Under the pieces are notes generated by a model, which was not told the DNA's origin, searched no databases, and saw only the letters and a program-made list of their open reading frames with translations. From assembly GCA_022560615.1 (NCBI GenBank), contig JADFSR010000006.1, positions 1 through 64,000 on the forward strand: a stretch of DNA of 64,000 nt, in the 5' to 3' direction. Numbering within the stretch: position 1 is the first letter of the stretch; each line of letters starts with the position of its first letter. This document shows, one piece after another, positions 1 through 7,949 of this stretch. The position numbers and the translations under genes are program-made. Source of the stretch: Gemmatimonadota bacterium. GTDB taxonomy: Bacteria; Gemmatimonadota; Gemmatimonadetes; Longimicrobiales; Gaopeijiaceae.

Positions 1-801
1 CTTCGCTGGGTCCAGCTCGCCACCCACGTTCAGCCCGCGACCCGGGCGGCACGACTCGCCTCGGTGCGGCGGTTCGCCGCTTGGCATAGCGCTACAGATC
101 CTCGGACCGAGGTCCCGCCCCAAGGACTCCTTCCCCACCGCTACCGCCGCACGCGCCCCTACATCTATAGCGATGACGAGATCAGCGGGATCGTTCTCAC
201 AGCCGGCGAACTCGCTTCGGCGAAGGGGCTCAGAGCCCGCACCTACTCGACGCTTTTTGGTCTGCTCGCTGTGACCGGGATGCGCGTCAGCGAAGCCTTG
301 TGTCTCAACCGCACGGATGTTGATCTCGAAGCTCGGGTACTCACGGTCCGGCGGACGAAGTTCGGCAAGACCCGACTCGTGCCCGTGCATCCGTCCACCT
401 GTGATGAGCTCAGAGCGTACGGCCACGACCGCGACCAGATCGTTCGTGTGTCGTTCACCGCTGGCTTTTTCGTTTCCGAGCGCGGCACCCGCATCTCGGG
501 ATGTGCGGCGCGCTCCACCTTCGCCAAGGTCTCCCGTGAGATCGGACTCCGGGCTCCTGCCCAAGGCCAGCGTCGCGGACACGGTCCGCGGCTGCACGAT
601 ATGCGGCATCGATTCGCCGTGAAGACGTTGATCGACTGGTACCGGGCTGGGCTCGACATCGAGGTTGAGATCCCCAAGCTGGCCACCTATCTCGGCCACG
701 TGCACGTCCACGACACCTACTGGTATCTGGAGGGCGTGCCCGAGCTCCTCGCTCTGGCCGCCGAGCGACTGCTCGACCAACACGAGGAGGGCAGATCATG
801 A
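1..801 (+). CDS. Tyrosine recombinase, 5' end outside window
   Basis: Site-specific tyrosine recombinase (phage integrase family) that cuts and rejoins DNA through a covalent tyrosine intermediate. The reading frame is open from base 1, so the gene begins upstream; a GTG at 64 is only an internal candidate start. Visible catalytic pieces are the first arginine in TGMRVSEAL, the H-x-x-R box in LHDMRHRFA and the late LGH followed by tyrosines in DTYWYLE. The N-terminal core-binding domain is mostly missing from the window. The stop overlaps the next recombinase by 4 nt (ATGA), so the two are translationally coupled. Overlapping recombinase genes on one strand are the hallmark of RIT (recombinase-in-trio) elements; this would be the second of the three. 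Confidence 0.85.
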   Translation, partial: LRWVQLATHVQPATRAARLASVRRFAAWHSATDPRTEVPPQGLLPHRYRRTRPYIYSDDEISGIVLTAGELASAKGLRARTYSTLFGLLAVTGMRVSEALCLNRTDVDLEARVLTVRRTKFGKTRLVPVHPSTCDELRAYGHDRDQIVRVSFTAGFFVSERGTRISGCAARSTFAKVSREIGLRAPAQGQRRGHGPRLHDMRHRFAVKTLIDWYRAGLDIEVEIPKLATYLGHVHVHDTYWYLEGVPELLALAAERLLDQHEEGRS

Positions 802-1793
802 TCTTTGCCAGCCTTCAGGCTCTCCTGCAGTCCTTCTTCACCGACCGCCTGCTTCGGCAGCGGCACGCGAGCCCCCACACCATCGCCGCATATCGCGACT
901 CGTTCCGGCTGCTGCTGAACTTCGCTGCCCAACGTCTCGGCAAGCCTCCCTCCGAGCTGCTCATCGAAGATCTCGGCGCACCCTTCATCGGCGAGTTCCT
1001 GCAACACCTCGAGATCGACCGAGGCAACAGTGCTCGCACCCGTAACACTCGCCTGGCCGCCATCCATTCCTTCTTCCGATACGTGGCCTTGACCGAACCG
1101 GCATACGCCCTCATCTGCCAGCGCGTCCTGGCGATGCCCAGCAAGCGCTTCGAGAAGAGGCCTCTCGTGTTCCTCGACCGGGCGGAGATCGAGGCCTTGC
1201 TCGCCGCGCCCGATCTTTCGACCTGGACCGGGCGTCGAGACCGAACCCTCTTGTTGCTCGCGATCCAGACCGGTCTCAGAGTCTCTGAACTCATCGGCCT
1301 GCGCTGGAAGGACATCGCTCTCGACAAAGGCGCCCATGTGCGCTGCGTCGGAAAAGGCAGGAAGCATCGCTCCACGCCTCTGCGTCGCGACGCCCAGACC
1401 CTGCTCCGTGCATGGCTCCGCCGCCAACATGCCGAACCGGAAGATCACGTCTTTCCCAGTATCCGTGGCGGAGCCCTCAGCCGAGACGCCATCGCGTGGC
1501 TCGTCACCAAACACACCATAACCGCCCAGAAGCACTGCCCGTCGCTGAAACGCAAACGAGTCACGCCACATGTGCTTCGTCACACCGCGGCCATGGAGCT
1601 GCTCCACCACGGCGTCGATTGCTCCGTCATCGCACTCTGGCTCGGACACGAGTCCATCGAGACCACCCACATCTATCTCCACGCCGATATGCGCCTCAAG
1701 GAACGAGCGCTCGCCCGCACTACGCCGATCGACACCAAGCCCGGCCGATACCGGCCCAACGATCAACTCCTCGCCTTCTTGGACAGCCTCTGA
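798..1793 (+). CDS. XerC/D-like tyrosine recombinase (RIT-like)
   Basis: Complete 331-residue tyrosine recombinase. The N-terminal SAM-like core-binding domain covers about residues 1-110. The catalytic domain shows R in TGLRVSELIGLRW, K in GKGRKHRSTPL, the H-x-x-R box in HVLRHTAAM, LGH near residue 285 and the nucleophile in HIYLHADM. The ATG lies in an ATGA overlap with the upstream recombinase stop. No cargo gene follows, and a short noncoding tail with repeated ATTATGCCG begins at its stop codon, as expected for the right end of a RIT-like element. The family is certain; the element type is inferred from the overlapping arrangement, because the first recombinase lies outside the window. 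Confidence 0.9.
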   Translation: MIFASLQALLQSFFTDRLLRQRHASPHTIAAYRDSFRLLLNFAAQRLGKPPSELLIEDLGAPFIGEFLQHLEIDRGNSARTRNTRLAAIHSFFRYVALTEPAYALICQRVLAMPSKRFEKRPLVFLDRAEIEALLAAPDLSTWTGRRDRTLLLLAIQTGLRVSELIGLRWKDIALDKGAHVRCVGKGRKHRSTPLRRDAQTLLRAWLRRQHAEPEDHVFPSIRGGALSRDAIAWLVTKHTITAQKHCPSLKRKRVTPHVLRHTAAMELLHHGVDCSVIALWLGHESIETTHIYLHADMRLKERALARTTPIDTKPGRYRPNDQLLAFLDSL

Positions 1794-1881
1794 TTATGCC
1801 GTGTCCATAGGCGCCGGGGCCCAGCCTTCGCCCCGATCTGAGATCGCTTCTCCGCATAATCCCGAACTCGGCATTATGCCG
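1793..1881. repeat. Candidate element end with ATTATGCCG repeats
   Basis: The 9-mer ATTATGCCG occurs at 1793-1801 and again at 1873-1881. An inverted GCATAAT lies at 1854-1860, opposite ATTATGC at 1873-1879. The last copy sits in a perfect 6-bp inverted repeat, CGGCAT-T-ATGCCG (1869-1881). This last repeat coincides with the point where the opposite-strand recombinase loses homology. I infer recombinase binding sites at the right end of the RIT-like element. The repeats are seen directly; their role is inferred. Confidence 0.6.
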
Positions 1882-2556
1882 AAGCGAATGTGGGGAGACG
1901 CGCTTCCGGATGCCGGCTCTCTCCTTCGCACGGGCGAAGAGCTTGTCAACGGACCCGCGAGTGAGTGGGCGTGAGGGATCTCGCCCGGGAAAGAGCCAGA
2001 GGGCGGGCTGGTACTCTCGCCAGTAGCGGCGCAGGGTCAGCAGCAGCCTCTGTGACAGCATGACGTAACGGTCCTTTCGGCCCTTGCCCTGATCGACCCG
2101 GATCATCATCCGCCCGCTGTCGATGTCGGACAACTTCAAGTGTACGACCTCGCCGATGCGAAGGCCGGCCGAGTAGAGGGTCATGAGGAGGGCGCGGTGC
2201 TTGAGGTTGGTCGTGACGTCGAACAGCGCCCGCACCTCCTCACAGCTCAGCACAACCGGCAGCTTCCTGCCAGACCGCTGGTAGGGGATGTGCTCGACGT
2301 TCCAGTCGACCCGGAGCACCTCCCGGTAGAAGAAGCGGATCGCGCAGACGTGCACGTTGAACGTGCTCCACGACACGCGTTTGTCCTTGGTCAGGAAGAG
2401 CTGGTACTGCTTCACGTCCTCCGCCGTCAGCTCGTCAGGCGGCCGCATGAAGAAGCGCACGAAGCACTTCATCTTCTCGATATAGCACTTCCTCGTGTTC
2501 TCGGCGTAGCCGCGGATGCGTAGCTCGCGGTCCATGCGATCGTGGAGCCTGCCCAT
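1876..2556 (-). pseudogene. Tyrosine recombinase truncated inside its H-x-x-R box
   Basis: Integron/XerD-like tyrosine recombinase lacking its C-terminus. The ATG at 2556 is preceded by a GGGAGG ribosome-binding site. The core-binding domain (LRIRGYAENTRKCYIEKMK) and the first part of the catalytic domain (SAGLRIGEVVHLKLSDID, then GKGRKDRYVML) are intact. Homology stops right after SPHSLRH, where family members continue with SFATHLLE. Here the frame runs into the repeat-rich end of the neighbouring element and reads on as unrelated sequence to a stop near 1720. The final catalytic histidine and tyrosine are therefore gone. I infer disruption by the RIT-like element; the other half would lie beyond its left end, outside the window. 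Confidence 0.85.
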
Positions 2557-2744
2557 GGGATCCTCCCGTCGAAAGGGGCCAATGAAATGGGCGTCACAAC
2601 GACGCCCCATGGCCCATCATCTCGGGGGACGGCAAACGAGGGGAAGGCGCGCAGGATCGGTTGGTCCGTCAGACGCATCCCAGGAAGGGACCCGCAGGCT
2701 CCACCGCGCAGCGGTTTAGTTCAATCGTTTTTTGGCTTTAGTTA

Positions 2745-2770
2745 TGGAATACATTAGTTGTGGAATACAA
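2745..2770. repeat. TGGAATACA direct repeat with TTGT-N5-ACAA palindrome
   Basis: TGGAATACA occurs at 2745-2753 and 2761-2769. The second copy lies in TTGTGGAATACAA, an inverted repeat with TTGT/ACAA arms. The stretch 2557-2814 has no gene. Because this AT-richer site lies just downstream of the MarR gene, it could be a regulatory site or the outer edge of a mobile element; neither is proven. Confidence 0.35.
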
Positions 2771-2814
2771 CTTGTTGGTCAAATGAATCCGGGGCGACTC
2801 ACTGGGGTCGCTCG

Positions 2815-3354
2815 TCAGCTCACTACGCAGCAGCTACCACCCGACGCCTGTACGCGTGCCGTGAACGACCGCCCCAGCCGCGCCACCAACCGCGTGATCT
2901 CGGCCCGGATCTCGGGATCGAAGTCGGACAGCATCTCGACGTATTCGCGGGTGAGGTCCGACTCGATCGTCGAACAGATGGACGCGCCCTCTGGTGTCGC
3001 CACCAACCGCACTACCCGACCGTCCACCGGGACCCGTTCTCGAACCAAGAGGCCTTTGTCCACCAGGCCGTTCGCGACTCGGCTGGCGGTACTCTTGTCC
3101 AGGTACAGGTGGGCCGCGAGGTCGTTGATGGTCAGTGCGCCCGCATCGACGACTCCCTTGAGCGCGTAGCACTGGCTCACGCTGATGTCGTAACAGCACG
3201 CCCGGTCGCGGTCTCGGAACTGGATGACTCGAATGAGCTCGCTCAGCGCATCGGACAGCTGCTCGGCGTCAGCGCGCAAGCTGGCGTCTGCCGTGGGATC
3301 CGCGATCGGCAGCGCGAGGGAGCTGCGTCTCGGGTGGTCGATAGTAGTTGGCAT
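2815..3354 (-). CDS. MarR-family transcriptional regulator
   Basis: Winged-helix regulator of about 179 residues. The DNA-binding part reads LTINDLAAHLYLDKSTASR followed by a wing with RVPVDGRVVRLVATPEG, typical MarR architecture. The region before it contains CCYDISVSQCYAL, with three cysteines close together that could sense redox or electrophiles; that is inference. I chose the ATG at 3354 rather than the TTG at 3360 because a good promoter puts the transcript start at or next to this ATG. The gene lies downstream of a ThDP decarboxylase pair on the same strand but has its own promoter, with a palindrome over the start codon that suggests autorepression. Confidence 0.88.
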   Translation of the reverse strand: MPTTIDHPRRSSLALPIADPTADASLRADAEQLSDALSELIRVIQFRDRDRACCYDISVSQCYALKGVVDAGALTINDLAAHLYLDKSTASRVANGLVDKGLLVRERVPVDGRVVRLVATPEGASICSTIESDLTREYVEMLSDFDPEIRAEITRLVARLGRSFTARVQASGGSCCVVS

Positions 3355-3389
3355 ATGCAACTATTAATCGAATGTGGATCGCAGGTCAA
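3345..3389 (-). promoter_or_regulatory. marR promoter with overlapping operator, probably leaderless
   Basis: On the minus strand a -35 TTGACC (3389-3384) is followed by a 17-nt spacer and a -10 TAATAG (3366-3361); the next purine at the right distance is the A of the marR ATG (3354). No ribosome-binding site precedes that ATG, so a leaderless mRNA is likely. The inverted repeat TAGTTG-N7-CAACTA (3345-3363) covers the -10 box and the start codon, a natural autoregulatory operator. The -35 box overlaps the stop of the upstream decarboxylase gene. Confidence 0.6.
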
Positions 3390-3964
3390 CGAGCCGAGCT
3401 CCTCTCACGAATCCACCGCTTGAACCGGAATGCGTTCTCGGGCAGTGCGAAGTCCATCCCGTAGTTGTCCGGCCCAACGGCCTTCACCTTGGCGACGATC
3501 ACGCCCAGGTCGTCGCGCTCGAGCGCCTCGACGACAGCCTCGCCGAAGGCCATCGGGGAGTTGACGGACGCGACGTGCTCGATGCCCGCCCCGCGTGCGA
3601 TTGCCGCGAGATCTGTGATGCCCGCGGTCGTGTGCGACTCGAAGCCGCCCGTAGAGAGCAGGCTGCCGTTGTCGAAAATGATGTGCAGGAGGTTCTTAGG
3701 CCGATATCGGGCCAGCGTCGCGAGTCCACCCAGATTCATCAGCACCGAGCCGTCACCGTCGAGCACTACGACCTGCTCCTCGGGTCGGTGCAGCGCGAGG
3801 CCCAAAGCGATCGAGGAGGCGAGGCCCATCGCGTGCTGCAGGTAGAAGAAGTTCTCCCGGTGACCGAGGTCGTAGAGCTCCTGCGCGCTCGCGCCCATGA
3901 TGGTCACGACCAGCTTGTCCTGGAGCTCGGGGTAGAGCATCGCAATGCACTGGGCTCGTTCCAT
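3386..3964 (-). CDS. ThDP-dependent decarboxylase, beta subunit (sulfopyruvate decarboxylase-like)
   Basis: C-terminal, cofactor-binding half of a split thiamine-diphosphate decarboxylase, about 192 residues. The ThDP/Mg motif is GDGSVLMNLGG followed at the usual distance by IIFDNGS. It resembles ComE of sulfopyruvate decarboxylase and the C-terminal part of phosphonopyruvate decarboxylase. Its start shares one base with the alpha-subunit stop (TGATG), so the two are co-translated. No sulfolactate or coenzyme M genes lie nearby, so the substrate, an unspecified 2-oxo acid, cannot be fixed from sequence. Confidence 0.8.
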   Translation of the reverse strand: MERAQCIAMLYPELQDKLVVTIMGASAQELYDLGHRENFFYLQHAMGLASSIALGLALHRPEEQVVVLDGDGSVLMNLGGLATLARYRPKNLLHIIFDNGSLLSTGGFESHTTAGITDLAAIARGAGIEHVASVNSPMAFGEAVVEALERDDLGVIVAKVKAVGPDNYGMDFALPENAFRFKRWIRERSSAR

Positions 3965-4473
3965 CACTCCTCCATCAGATCCCGCGTGAGCAGGAGCGCC
4001 ACAGGAGAAAGTGAGCTCTGGGAGAAGGTCCACGCCTCCTGGATCTGCTTGCCGACTTTCTCCGGGTCGCGGGCGTACTCGAACGGGATGCTCAACGCCC
4101 GCAGAACGCCTTCCGTGACGATGCCGCCCCGAGTGTGCCACGGGTACGGCTCCCCCCAGTGCCCACGCAGCGCGATGAGCATGCACAGCGGGATCCCGTA
4201 GAGCTGCGCGAGGGACACGATGCCGTTGATCGCCCCTAACAGGCCGTGATTCTGCATGAGCAGGATGTGCGGCTCTCCCGCGAAGTACGCGCCAGCGGCG
4301 ATGCCCACCGCCTCCTCTTCCTTCGCGACCTGGATGAGCTGGATGTCCGGGTCGTCCTCAGCGCGCTGGAGCAGCAGGCCAAGCCACGTCTCCGGCAGCG
4401 CGGAGATGCTCGTGATGCCGGCGGCCTTGATGCCCTCGAAGACGGCCTTCGAGTTGTCGTAGGAGACGGTCAT
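3964..4473 (-). CDS. ThDP-dependent decarboxylase, alpha subunit (sulfopyruvate decarboxylase-like)
   Basis: N-terminal, pyrimidine-binding half of the split enzyme, 169 residues. The segment VAKEEEAVGIAAGAYFAG contains the conserved glutamate that activates ThDP, and LLMQNHGLLGAING is typical of ComD-like subunits. The ATG at 4473 has a good GGGGAAGG ribosome-binding site. The reading frame of an upstream kinase fragment happens to end in an ATGA overlap with this start. Together with the beta subunit it should form an alpha/beta decarboxylase of a small 2-oxo acid. Confidence 0.8.
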   Translation of the reverse strand: MTVSYDNSKAVFEGIKAAGITSISALPETWLGLLLQRAEDDPDIQLIQVAKEEEAVGIAAGAYFAGEPHILLMQNHGLLGAINGIVSLAQLYGIPLCMLIALRGHWGEPYPWHTRGGIVTEGVLRALSIPFEYARDPEKVGKQIQEAWTFSQSSLSPVALLLTRDLMEE

Positions 4474-4540
4474 GGGGTCACCTTCCCCCAGGCCGCGTCG
4501 TGGCGTTCAGGACGATCTGGTACGACGGGGCGACCTTGCC

Positions 4541-4661
4541 GGCTATGCTTGATGTCCTCCGCCAGGTAGACCGACGCCATACCGCCCTCACCGAGCTTGC
4601 TCTCGATGCGGTACCGGCCGTCCAGCGCGGCGTCCAGGCGATCGGTATGGCCTTCGTTCAT
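4541..4661 (-). pseudogene. N-terminal fragment of a Ser/Thr protein kinase
   Basis: About 40 residues match the start of Hanks-type kinases: RYRIESKLGEGGMASVYLAE contains the Gly-rich ATP loop. The sequence then stops resembling a kinase just before the expected lysine-bearing strand and continues as noncoding leader into the decarboxylase operon. In Gemmatimonadota such kinases have an almost identical N-terminus, which supports the taxonomic guess. The remaining catalytic domain is absent from the window, so this is a deletion remnant. Confidence 0.7.
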
Positions 4662-4811
4662 GTTTGCAACCTACGCGGCGGGTGTGGGATTGCGCGAGCG
4701 GCGGGCAGCGTGCGGACGTCGAGACCTCCCCGTGCCCCGTTCGGCCATTGGGGCGTCCCGCGCCAGCCGAGACGTTCCGAGCACCACCATCAGCCGAGTG
4801 GGCCAGAGCCA

Positions 4812-4841
4812 TTGTCCCGACAGAGATATGGTCATACCATA
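4812..4841 (+). promoter_or_regulatory. Toxin-antitoxin promoter and operator
   Basis: TTGTCC (4812-4817), a 17-nt spacer and TACCAT (4835-4840) form a plausible sigma-70 promoter. The inverted repeat TATGGT-CAT-ACCATA (4827-4841) overlaps the -10 box and lies just before the antitoxin ATG at 4846. RHH antitoxins bind such short inverted repeats, so autorepression is likely. The transcript would begin almost at the start codon. Confidence 0.5.
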
Positions 4842-4845
4842 CCTC

Positions 4846-5112
4846 ATGGCACGCATGACCGTTCGCTCCACGTTTGCGCTCGACCCGGAAACCGCCGACT
4901 CCCTGGACCGGCTTGCCAAGCGCTGGCAGGTCTCGAAGTCCGAGGCTCTACGCAGGGCAGTGGCTGCTGCCGCCACGGTAGAGGAAGCCGACGCCGCCTC
5001 CGATTCGCTCAACGCCCTCTCCGAGCTGCAAGAACGGCTGGGCCTGGACGTCGAAAAGGCCGAGAAGTGGGCGCGCTCGGTCCGAGCCGAACGCGAAGCG
5101 GGGAGGGTGTGA
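4846..5112 (+). CDS. Ribbon-helix-helix (CopG-type) antitoxin
   Basis: Small antitoxin of 88 residues. Residues 4-45 form the RHH fold: a beta strand TVRSTFALDPETADSLDRLA, then KRWQVSKSEALRRAV. The acidic and charged C-terminus (ELQERLGLDVEKAEKW) would wrap the toxin. The ATG at 4846 was chosen over the much longer open frame because the promoter and palindrome end just before it; an ATG at 4855 is the alternative. Its stop overlaps the PIN toxin start by 4 nt (GTGA), the usual antitoxin-first layout. Confidence 0.85.
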   Translation: MARMTVRSTFALDPETADSLDRLAKRWQVSKSEALRRAVAAAATVEEADAASDSLNALSELQERLGLDVEKAEKWARSVRAEREAGRV

Positions 5113-5504
5113 GGTTAGAGGCCAGGGCTGCGGTCCATCTCGACACGAGCTTCTTGATCCGAGCTCTGGTGGACGGCTCCAACGAAGCGCTCGCGCTGCG
5201 CACTTGGCTCCGGCAGGGTCTCACCGTCGCGATCTCGACACTCGCTTGGGGGGAGTTCCTTTGCGGACCGCTCTCGGAAGAGGATGCCGCGCTGGCGCTC
5301 CGGATCGTCCGGGCCCAGGTCCCGTTGGGGACGGAGGAGGCCACCGAGGCCGCGCGGCTCTTCAATGAAACGGGCCGTAGGCGCAGCAGCTTTCAGGACT
5401 GTCTCGTAGCCGCAACCGCCCTCACCGCAGTTGCCGAGCTCGCTACGGCCGACAGGTCCGACTTCGTCCGTTTCGAGGAATGCGGACTGAAGCTCGCGGG
5501 GTGA
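5109..5504 (+). CDS. PIN-domain toxin (VapC-like RNase)
   Basis: PIN-fold endoribonuclease toxin, 131 residues, starting at GTG 5109 inside the antitoxin stop. The acidic metal-binding residues are visible: D in VHLDTSFLI, E in AWGEFLC, D in SFQDCLVAATA and D in TADRSDF. It should cleave RNA when the RHH antitoxin is degraded. It is intact and directly coupled to its antitoxin. Confidence 0.88.
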   Translation: MRLEARAAVHLDTSFLIRALVDGSNEALALRTWLRQGLTVAISTLAWGEFLCGPLSEEDAALALRIVRAQVPLGTEEATEAARLFNETGRRRSSFQDCLVAATALTAVAELATADRSDFVRFEECGLKLAG

Positions 5505-5588
5505 CGCGAGTCGGTGCGTCCCGGTCGGCCATCGGCCTGCCCACACGTGAGTGCCATCATCCGACCCACTGATTGCTCACTCTCGGAG

Positions 5589-5654
5589 CGGTATGTACCG
5601 TCATTGTAGCTACATCCAGAAGATGCGATGCCGCAGATACGATGCCGCAGATAC
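5589..5654 (+). promoter_or_regulatory. mazE leader: two palindromes and a 14-bp tandem repeat
   Basis: Upstream of mazE lie CGGTA-TG-TACCG (5589-5600) and the perfect palindrome TGTAGCTACA (5605-5614), followed by two head-to-tail copies of GATGCCGCAGATAC (5627-5654) that end at the mazE ATG. MazE/AbrB antitoxins bind palindromes of this kind. An in-frame ATG about 33 nt upstream of 5656 means the duplication could add residues to MazE. Confidence 0.45.
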
Positions 5655-5655
5655 G

Positions 5656-5898
5656 ATGTTAGTGCGGATTCAGAGGTGGGGGAACTCGCTGGCGCTCAGG
5701 ATTCCCGCGGCCTTCGCCAGGGAGATCGGAATCGAATCGGGGGCGGAGGTTGACCTCGCGCTCAAGGACAGACGGCTGGTGATCAAGCCGCCAGCGCGCC
5801 CCTCCTACTCGCTCGACGAACTCCTCGAGGGAGTCACCGAGAAGAACCTGCACGCCCAGGTCGACGCCGGAGCGCCGCGGGGCGGGGAGGCGTGGTAG
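5656..5898 (+). CDS. mazE: MazE-type antitoxin (AbrB/SpoVT fold)
   Basis: An 80-residue antitoxin. The N-terminal swapped-hairpin DNA-binding domain is clear: VRIQRWGNSLALRIP, then IGIESGAEVDLALKDRRLVI. The C-terminal tail (YSLDELLEGVTEKN) is the usual MazF-binding segment. ATG 5656 gives the canonical N-terminus; an upstream in-frame ATG would add a short extension made of the tandem repeat. The stop overlaps the MazF start by 7 nt, so both are co-translated. Confidence 0.9.
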   Translation: MLVRIQRWGNSLALRIPAAFAREIGIESGAEVDLALKDRRLVIKPPARPSYSLDELLEGVTEKNLHAQVDAGAPRGGEAW

Positions 5899-6233
5899 GA
5901 GGTGGTTACGTCCCCGACCGTGGGGACGCTGTCTGGCTCCACTTGGATCCGCGGACCGGGCACGAGCAGGCCGGGCGACGGCCCGCGCTCGTCCTCTCTC
6001 CGGCCAGCTACAACGGCAAGGTGGGGCTCGCGATCCTCTGCCCGATCACCCGGCACGCGAAGGGCTACCCCTTCGAGGTCGCCCTGCCCGAGGGGCAGGG
6101 CGTCGCTGGCGTAGTCCTCTCGGATCAGGTGAAGAGCCTTGACTGGCGTGCGCACCGGGCCGAGCCGATCGGCCGCGTGCCCCCGCGCGTCACCGAGGAG
6201 GTGCTCCAGAAGCTGACGACGCTCCTAGGATGA
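5892..6233 (+). CDS. mazF: MazF/PemK-family endoribonuclease toxin
   Basis: Toxin of 113 residues with the MazF fold: PDRGDAVWL, GHEQAGRRPALVLS (catalytic arginine region), CPITRHAKGYPFEV and VVLSDQVKSLDW, which carries the conserved Ser/Asp. It cleaves mRNA at short sequence motifs. It starts at GTG 5892 within the end of mazE. It looks complete and is the second of three toxin-antitoxin loci within 3.2 kb. Confidence 0.92.
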   Translation: MVGGGYVPDRGDAVWLHLDPRTGHEQAGRRPALVLSPASYNGKVGLAILCPITRHAKGYPFEVALPEGQGVAGVVLSDQVKSLDWRAHRAEPIGRVPPRVTEEVLQKLTTLLG

Positions 6234-7392: not shown

Positions 7393-7521
7393 ATGAACGC
7401 TCCCGCTCCCGAACGGCCGCGCTACGACACCCCGGCGTCCGACCTGGGCCGGTGCCTCATCGGAGGCCTCGACGACGTAGCCGAAGCGCTCGCGGCGGCC
7501 GAGGGTGAAGGCTTTCGGTGA
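7393..7521 (+). pseudogene. Antitoxin remnant upstream of vapC
   Basis: A 42-codon frame starting ATG 7393 ends in a GTGA overlap with the toxin. Its C-terminus (SDLGRCLIGGLDDVAEALAA) looks like the toxin-binding tail of antitoxins paired with this VapC group, but no DNA-binding N-terminal domain is present. The ATG that sits where an antitoxin should begin (7366) hits a stop after nine codons. I infer an internal deletion that removed the DNA-binding part and left the tail. It could still be a minimal toxin-neutralising peptide. Confidence 0.5.
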
Positions 7522-7949
7522 TCCTGCTCGACGCGAACATCTTGTTGTACGCACGCGTCCAGTCCTTCGAGCAACACACCATCGCCAGCGAATGGCTGGA
7601 TGAGCAACTGAACGGGATCACCGGCGTTGGCATACCGTGGCCGACACTACTCGCGTTCGTCCGACTGATCTCGAACCGCCGGGTCTTCGAGCGCCCGCTC
7701 AGTACGCAGGAAGCTTGGCACCAGGTCGAGCACTGGCTGGATTGCGAGCCGGTGTGGACGCCGGTCCCCACGGAGCGTCACCGAGAGGTCATGAGCTCCT
7801 TGGTACGGAGCATCGGGAATCGCCCGAACCTGGTTCTGGATGTGCATCTGGCCGCGCTCGCTATCGAGAATGGCTTGAAGCTCTGCTCGACGGACGGGGA
7901 TTTCGCCCGCTTTCCGGGGCTTGTCTGGGAGAATCCGTTGGCCGGCTAG
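7518..7949 (+). CDS. vapC: VapC-family PIN toxin
   Basis: PIN-domain ribonuclease of 143 residues starting GTG 7518. It carries LLDANILLYA at the N-terminus, PWPTLLAFVRLISNRRVF in the middle and NLVLDVHLAALAIENG followed by STDGDFARFPGLVWENP at the end, the profile of the mycobacterial-type PIN subfamily in which the second acidic residue is often replaced. The toxin looks intact although its antitoxin is damaged, so either the remnant still protects, a solo antitoxin elsewhere does, or the toxin is inactive. Confidence 0.9.
   Translation: MILLDANILLYARVQSFEQHTIASEWLDEQLNGITGVGIPWPTLLAFVRLISNRRVFERPLSTQEAWHQVEHWLDCEPVWTPVPTERHREVMSSLVRSIGNRPNLVLDVHLAALAIENGLKLCSTDGDFARFPGLVWENPLAG

Follow-up and report, generated by a model that had tools for sequence, protein, structure and literature searches.

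Evidence that RIT elements insert at catalytic-motif codons of tyrosine recombinase and other genes

Results

A RIT element end within a tyrosine recombinase gene

The stretch analysed here (the window) comprises 64,000 nucleotides of a Gemmatimonadota genome of 105 contigs (GenBank assembly GCA_022560615.1) and corresponds to C6:1-64000 (JADFSR010000006.1), the contig beginning at window base 1. At its left end lie two genes in one direction on the plus strand. The first, ritB (1..801), is represented by its C-terminal 266 codons, its 5' part lying beyond the contig start; it matches PF00589 (E 4e-15), and 225 of 263 residues are identical to the complete RitB of a related locus, L150, from a genome of the same family. 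The second, ritC (798..1793), encodes 331 amino acids with matches to PF00589 (E 4e-36) and Phage_int_SAM_1 and is 88% identical to the RitC of L150, where part of a further recombinase precedes ritB. The initial annotation had read this region as two recombinases sharing an ATGA overlap and running off the window, and both are indeed present, overlapping at 798-801, matching Pfam Phage_integrase and with the first open at the left. On the RitC side, the terminal inverted repeat occupies 1851..1876 (minus strand) and reads inward TAATGCCGAGTTCGGGATTATGCGGA; this RIT terminal repeat is found in the same form at both ends of relatives, the window holding its right copy; terminal inverted repeats of about 28-34 bp are among the defining features of RIT elements. 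Between ritB and the right end we found no accessory non-recombinase genes, as in the complete element on contig C82 of the same genome, and an Rfam search of window positions 1-6000 gave no match. Since window base 1 is also the first base of the contig, neither ritA nor the left end nor the C-terminus of the interrupted target falls within the readable sequence, and this single insertion is documented from its right side.

Directly adjoining the repeat is a tyrosine recombinase gene of an IS91-linked element (1877..2556, minus strand; PF00589 and Phage_int_SAM_4), truncated after HSLR/H, where the slash marks the break here and below. Its open reading frame runs from 2610 to 1720 on the minus strand, with the start set by homology at 2556. 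An intact 288-amino-acid paralogue on contig C13 serves as the empty site, being colinear with the window at 92% DNA identity over 1877-2725; this includes an upstream stretch (2557..2725, minus strand, from blastn) that is common to the C13 copy and still belongs to the target element. The open reading frame following the intact C13 gene encodes what we take to be an IS91-type transposase. Identity to C13 ends at 1877, within the HSLRH codons: the paralogue reads ..CATTCGCTTCGGCACGCGTTTGCG (HSLRHAFA), and the minus strand of the window junction reads ..CATTCGCTTCGGCA/TAATGCCGAG. The empty site thus confirms that the element ends at the H-x-x-R box of an opposite-strand recombinase, as the initial annotation had proposed, and the truncation falls, to the base, at the edge of the repeat. 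Junction alignment places a putative 6-bp crossover spacer, TCGGCA, at 1877..1882 (minus strand), consisting of the Arg codon and the first two bases of the second His codon; the corresponding 6-bp duplication is seen in relatives. Searching the 105-contig genome for the missing target C-terminus with the C13 sequence from the break onward revealed no second copy, the matches being C13 itself, the known 60-bp window match and partial relatives on C2 and C87. The insertion must presumably inactivate the target recombinase, as the rest of the catalytic domain, including the nucleophilic tyrosine, would be lost. Very probably, then, the locus is a RIT element (ritA-ritB-ritC, with ritA off the contig) that inserted site-specifically into another tyrosine recombinase gene.

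The window RitC is 61-65% identical in alignment to eight plasmid or genome RitC proteins and falls inside the RitC tree. A second, complete RIT with all three rit genes lies on C82 (L008, approximately 1037-4430) in an IS256-type transposase gene at RCTV/H; its RitC is 61% identical to that of the window, three copies of its spacer, CGTTCA, are present, and between the element and the 3' half of the target lies a 20-bp palindrome. Remnants of a further diverged recombinase set, with RitA/B-like proteins and transposase-like neighbours, occur on C87 (L009, 1-1760). Elsewhere in the window, the open reading frames at 4597-6233 and 7518-7949 read like toxin-antitoxin pairs (ribbon-helix-helix with PIN, MazE with MazF) and another PIN protein, an assignment made by reading only.

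Related elements and their targets

We drew a sample of related loci by similarity to RitC, comprising 80 loci from named genomes, 20 from viral contigs, 8 of 569 matching plasmid records, further relatives from the phylum of the window and, later, a fresh sample of three further groups (15 loci). An element end was called at 119 of the 130 loci examined (11 without), and 110 of these had a flank of at least 30 bp (nine more without). L139 (a fragment) and L155 (masked flanks) were left out, and L152 is the same contig as L047. The element ends of relatives follow the inverted-repeat pattern T(A/T)ATGCCG-N7-GATTATGCCG and variants.

The junction seen in the window, sought across the sample as the initial annotation had suggested, occurs at 25 of the 110 loci, a recurrence far beyond chance, each time in a tyrosine recombinase gene at the same codon (HxxR/H). 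A further 22 loci have ArdC genes interrupted at HExx/H, and 11 have DUF3489 genes, 10 of them at TGWQx/H or variants and one (L125) at HTVR/G. The remaining assigned targets are IS66 transposase genes (8), a serine recombinase gene with near-identical flanks in one Kibdelosporangium genome (5), rve-type DDE genes (2), the IS256-type transposase gene on C82 in the window's own genome (1), istB (1) and a tyrosine recombinase interrupted near box III (1; L188, LLGHTKLE/STVRYLG, read by eye), while 34 flanks have no assigned target. The idea that such an element aims at the active-site codons of its own protein family is supported by the 25 recombinase loci and holds more widely than first put: the preference is not for 'own family' as such, since in other RIT clades the targeted motif codons are those of ArdC, DUF3489, IS66 and serine recombinase genes. 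The five Kibdelosporangium philippinense loci (L099, L101, L104, L105 and L106) have identical RitC proteins and near-identical serine recombinase genes (..GTMSEA/ELHFLKARL), with the site on the complementary strand relative to the HxxRH class; these near-identical copies from one genome represent one event or few.

Pfam profiles fix the insertion position independently of the analyst's choice. PF00589 matched 15 of 24 recombinase five-prime flanks in full, each time up to profile position 133 (L041, L042, both L045, L046_L, L050, L051, L053, L061, both L095, L102, L150, L151 and L181); conversely, the three-prime flanks of L042, L044, L061, L068 and L154 begin at position 134 (n = 5). In the window flank the match extends to 137, into element codons, and a weak match in the L054 five-prime flank ends at 116. 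For L048, L060 and L055 the match lies in another frame, indicating a frameshift before the break. The five-prime flanks L057_L and L093 gave no Pfam match and were called by motif reading, and L046_R and L057_R were too short and were left out of the Pfam search. Motif reading is also the basis for L063 and L037, where Pfam matched nothing (in L037 on either side). ArdC five-prime flanks end at PF18818:52-53 (18/18) and three-prime flanks begin at 54 (6/6), and DUF3489 flanks end at PF11994:34-35 (10/11, with L125 at 39) and begin at 36 (2/2).

No pair among the 24 recombinase five-prime flanks exceeds 60% identity over the last 70 amino acids, and by this divergence the recombinase insertions are separate events. 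The three nearest relatives by RitC are L150, L151 and L047 (88%, 86% and 84% identity). In L150 and L151 the RITs lie at HVLR/H and HMLR/H of two other tyrosine recombinases, and although their RitC proteins are 86-88% identical to that of the window, the three target proteins share only 42-47% mutual identity. L047 (2472, a Gemmatimonadetes contig) is a genuine exception within the lineage: its RIT interrupts an istB gene at a point where the fit to the HxLRH codons is poor. Two recombinase targets (L041 and L050) are 49-55% identical to the L150 RitB and, as RitB homologues, show that RIT-type genes are also hit. ArdC flanks are more redundant, with several Roseobacter loci 74-94% alike, so that the 18 flanks are not 18 events.

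Target classes follow the RitC phylogeny. The tree, of 112 rows, was built by a quick method, and one of its branches (L138) is very long. On it the three main target classes required 3 changes on 57 rows, compared with a shuffled mean of 25.4 (minimum 20); after thinning to 42 rows, 3 changes compared with a shuffled mean of 16.6 (minimum 12). The ArdC class lies within one clade, as does the DUF3489 class except for L125. On this tree, RIT clade predicts target class.

Junction anatomy

In 57 elements, one end adjoins a plain target half, and at the other a palindrome with a 6-bp spacer on each side stands between the element and the rest of the target. The palindrome, of approximately 20 bp (TTATGCCGATATCGGCATAA and variants), consists of two inverted copies of the terminal arm of the element. 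Of the 57 elements, 32 have the same spacer at both target junctions, compared with 1.6% of between-element pairs, which shows that insertion duplicates 6 bp, the repeat being exact only in those 32. The inner spacer equals the five-prime spacer in 24 of 57. By our reading, the palindrome lies on the 3' side of the target in 33 of 33 such elements of the three main classes. Relative to the element it lies on the RitA side in 34 of 57 and on the RitC side in 23 and, being nonetheless always on the target 3' side in the main classes, shows that the core occurs in both orientations.

Departures from this arrangement comprise three elements with palindromes on both sides (L044, L094 and L134) and 12 with none on either. 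Six of the 12 (L045, L046, L057, L095, L096 and L129) are flanked on each side by a five-prime target half, the two halves being different; recombination between two RIT copies would give this pattern and is their likely origin. The 12 also include L034, a palindrome-free insertion, and L037, with imperfect palindromes on both sides.

Inner spacers fit N(A/C)GNNA, corresponding to an Arg codon and the start of a His codon, in 15 of 17 elements of the recombinase clades compared with 1 of 28 in the ArdC and DUF3489 classes. When only inner spacers that differ from the present target are counted, the fit is 10 of 12 compared with 0 of 21 in other classes. The inner spacer would be either 6 bp kept from the previous site or a spacer tuned to the motif, and both options imply repeated use of the same codons.

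DNA motif versus protein family

Across recombinase flanks, positions 1 and 2 of the His, Leu, Arg and His codons are invariant or nearly so, and the wobble bases carry 0.1-0.2 bit, except for the pyrimidine of the first His. Conservation of the first two codon positions follows from the protein motif alone and is no proof of DNA recognition. With a leave-one-out matrix, the true site came out on top for every one of the 24 recombinase flanks, and we applied the recombinase matrix to off-family insertions of the recombinase-hitting clades. These loci were chosen after the tree was seen and number only six with a five-prime flank; their true sites ranked 13, 3, 5, 17 and 165 of 1770 and 1 of 108 (combined p 6e-8), the weakest (165) being L047 in istB. 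Off-family insertions of these RITs thus appear to lie mostly in DNA that resembles HxLRH codons.

Sites of other clades mostly score badly under this matrix, except that the ArdC HELGH sites of L036 and L066 rank first. In L125, the break in the DUF3489 gene is in the recombinase register and lies a few codons away from where the DUF3489-hitting clade inserts. We rejected the proposition that the target is set by protein family alone, as L125 and the ArdC HELGH sites (first of 1770) point to DNA. The pattern CAY-NNN-CTN-NGG-CA is common to HxLRH and HELGH codons and may be a route by which lineages switch between protein families.

The HxxRH codons of the RITs' own recombinase genes score lower in recombinase-hitting than in ArdC-hitting RITs (median 14.0 versus 16.7, p 2e-5, a value that ignores relatedness), perhaps reflecting self-avoidance by the former, but 54 of 61 own sites score at least as high as the weakest real target.

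Discussion

Comparison of sequences (ends, insertion position, 6-bp repeat, palindrome, orientation, clade coupling and off-family sites) suggests the following mechanism. The lineage represented in the window very probably recognises CAY-NNN-YTN-MGN-CA, the codons of the catalytic box H-x-L-R-H as imposed by the protein code. RitA, RitB and RitC would bind the TTATGCCG arms and the target half-site, and a circular intermediate would carry the 6-bp spacer. Strand exchange very probably takes place over these 6 bp, the last two of which are the CA of the second His codon. The core would invert between its flanking spacers, and the internal spacer would be a footprint of an earlier target.

A simpler rule, under which the target is recognised by spacer identity between circle and target, ending in CA, strikes us as improbable; on this view the motifs would be hit because they are rich in such 6-mers, and the His and Leu codons farther upstream would contribute nothing. 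Inner spacers do end in CA at 44 of 45 palindrome ends in the three main classes, and L054, L052 and others tolerate very different spacers. Outside the spacer, however, all 24 recombinase flanks carry C at -14, A at -13 and T at -7, and a spacer-only rule would scatter insertions across many genes; the bases at -14, -13 and -7 are also fixed by the protein motif, and a spacer rule could cover part of the specificity. Still less credible is near-random insertion in which copies persist only in dispensable mobile-element genes, whose over-representation would then reflect selection. While every identified target except the DUF3489 genes is a gene of mobile elements or plasmids, survival cannot give base-exact positions (PF00589:133 in 15/15, PF18818:52-53 in 18/18 and PF11994:34-35 in 10/11) or account for the coupling of clade and target. 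Lastly, a RIT-recombinase chimera from a misjoined contig end can be set aside with near certainty: the contig does start inside the element, but the junction lies 1.9 kb inside it and L150 and L151 have the same kind of junction in different genes of two other genomes. We favour recognition of catalytic-box codons together with exchange over the spacer.

Published RITs (Van Houdt et al. 2012, PMC3414803) measure ~3.5 kb, with three recombinase genes that overlap by ATGA, an inverted repeat and an overlapping palindrome, and their described insertions are in radC (twice), IS66 tnpA and a Tn6049-like transposase gene (PMC3414803; Cupriavidus metallidurans CH34 genome, PMC2864759). In the available portions of these two accounts, repeat searches gave nothing convincing as a binding site apart from the inverted repeat and palindrome, and the target rule, the 6-bp spacer and clade-specific targets are absent; a 2023 table gives RIT target specificity as not formally tested (PMC10214605). 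The Tn554 family, SEs and GInts are described as having several cooperating tyrosine recombinases, a 6-bp spacer or staggered cuts and target specificity (PMC10214605, PMC5385486). From the portions of these sources available, those elements differ from RITs in carrying accessory genes (tnpC/srap, tfp, ginC/D) and cargo, whereas the sampled RITs carry only recombinases and the palindrome, and in using fixed chromosomal sites, whereas RITs change target family by clade. SEs and Tn554 are reported to keep a 6-bp footprint from the donor site (PMC10214605). The RIT inner spacer differs from the target in many elements and looks like an earlier target of the same class, and may be a footprint of this kind.

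In the literature searched we found no statement of the target rule, an earlier mention being possible in the main RIT paper (Ricker et al. 2013). Literature searches for a link between ArdC and RITs found nothing, and those for transposons aimed at catalytic codons found nothing relevant.

Inteins, group I introns and homing endonucleases (conserved active-site codons) and Tn7 (glmS) secure a lasting target by using codons that can hardly change. These leave the target gene working, whereas RITs break it, and the broken gene mostly belongs to another mobile element. One reading, which we find about as easy to doubt as to accept, is that RITs are hyperparasites of mobile elements: each lineage would read, in DNA, the unchangeable bases of a catalytic motif (HxLRH, including that of ritB-type genes, ArdC HExxH, or IS66, serine-recombinase or DDE enzyme motifs), lineages would switch between unrelated proteins with look-alike codons and the inner spacer would record an earlier victim.

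The target rule would account for the repeated presence of RITs in recombinase, transposase and ArdC genes, and it suggests that a transposon can reach a very wide host range by reading codons that are fixed across an entire protein family. Elements with mixed halves or double palindromes are likely recombination products, and RITs may in this way drive rearrangements. With ends, 6-bp spacer, palindrome and target rule in hand, a direct integration assay becomes possible, and earlier insertions may be readable from genome sequences through the internal spacer.
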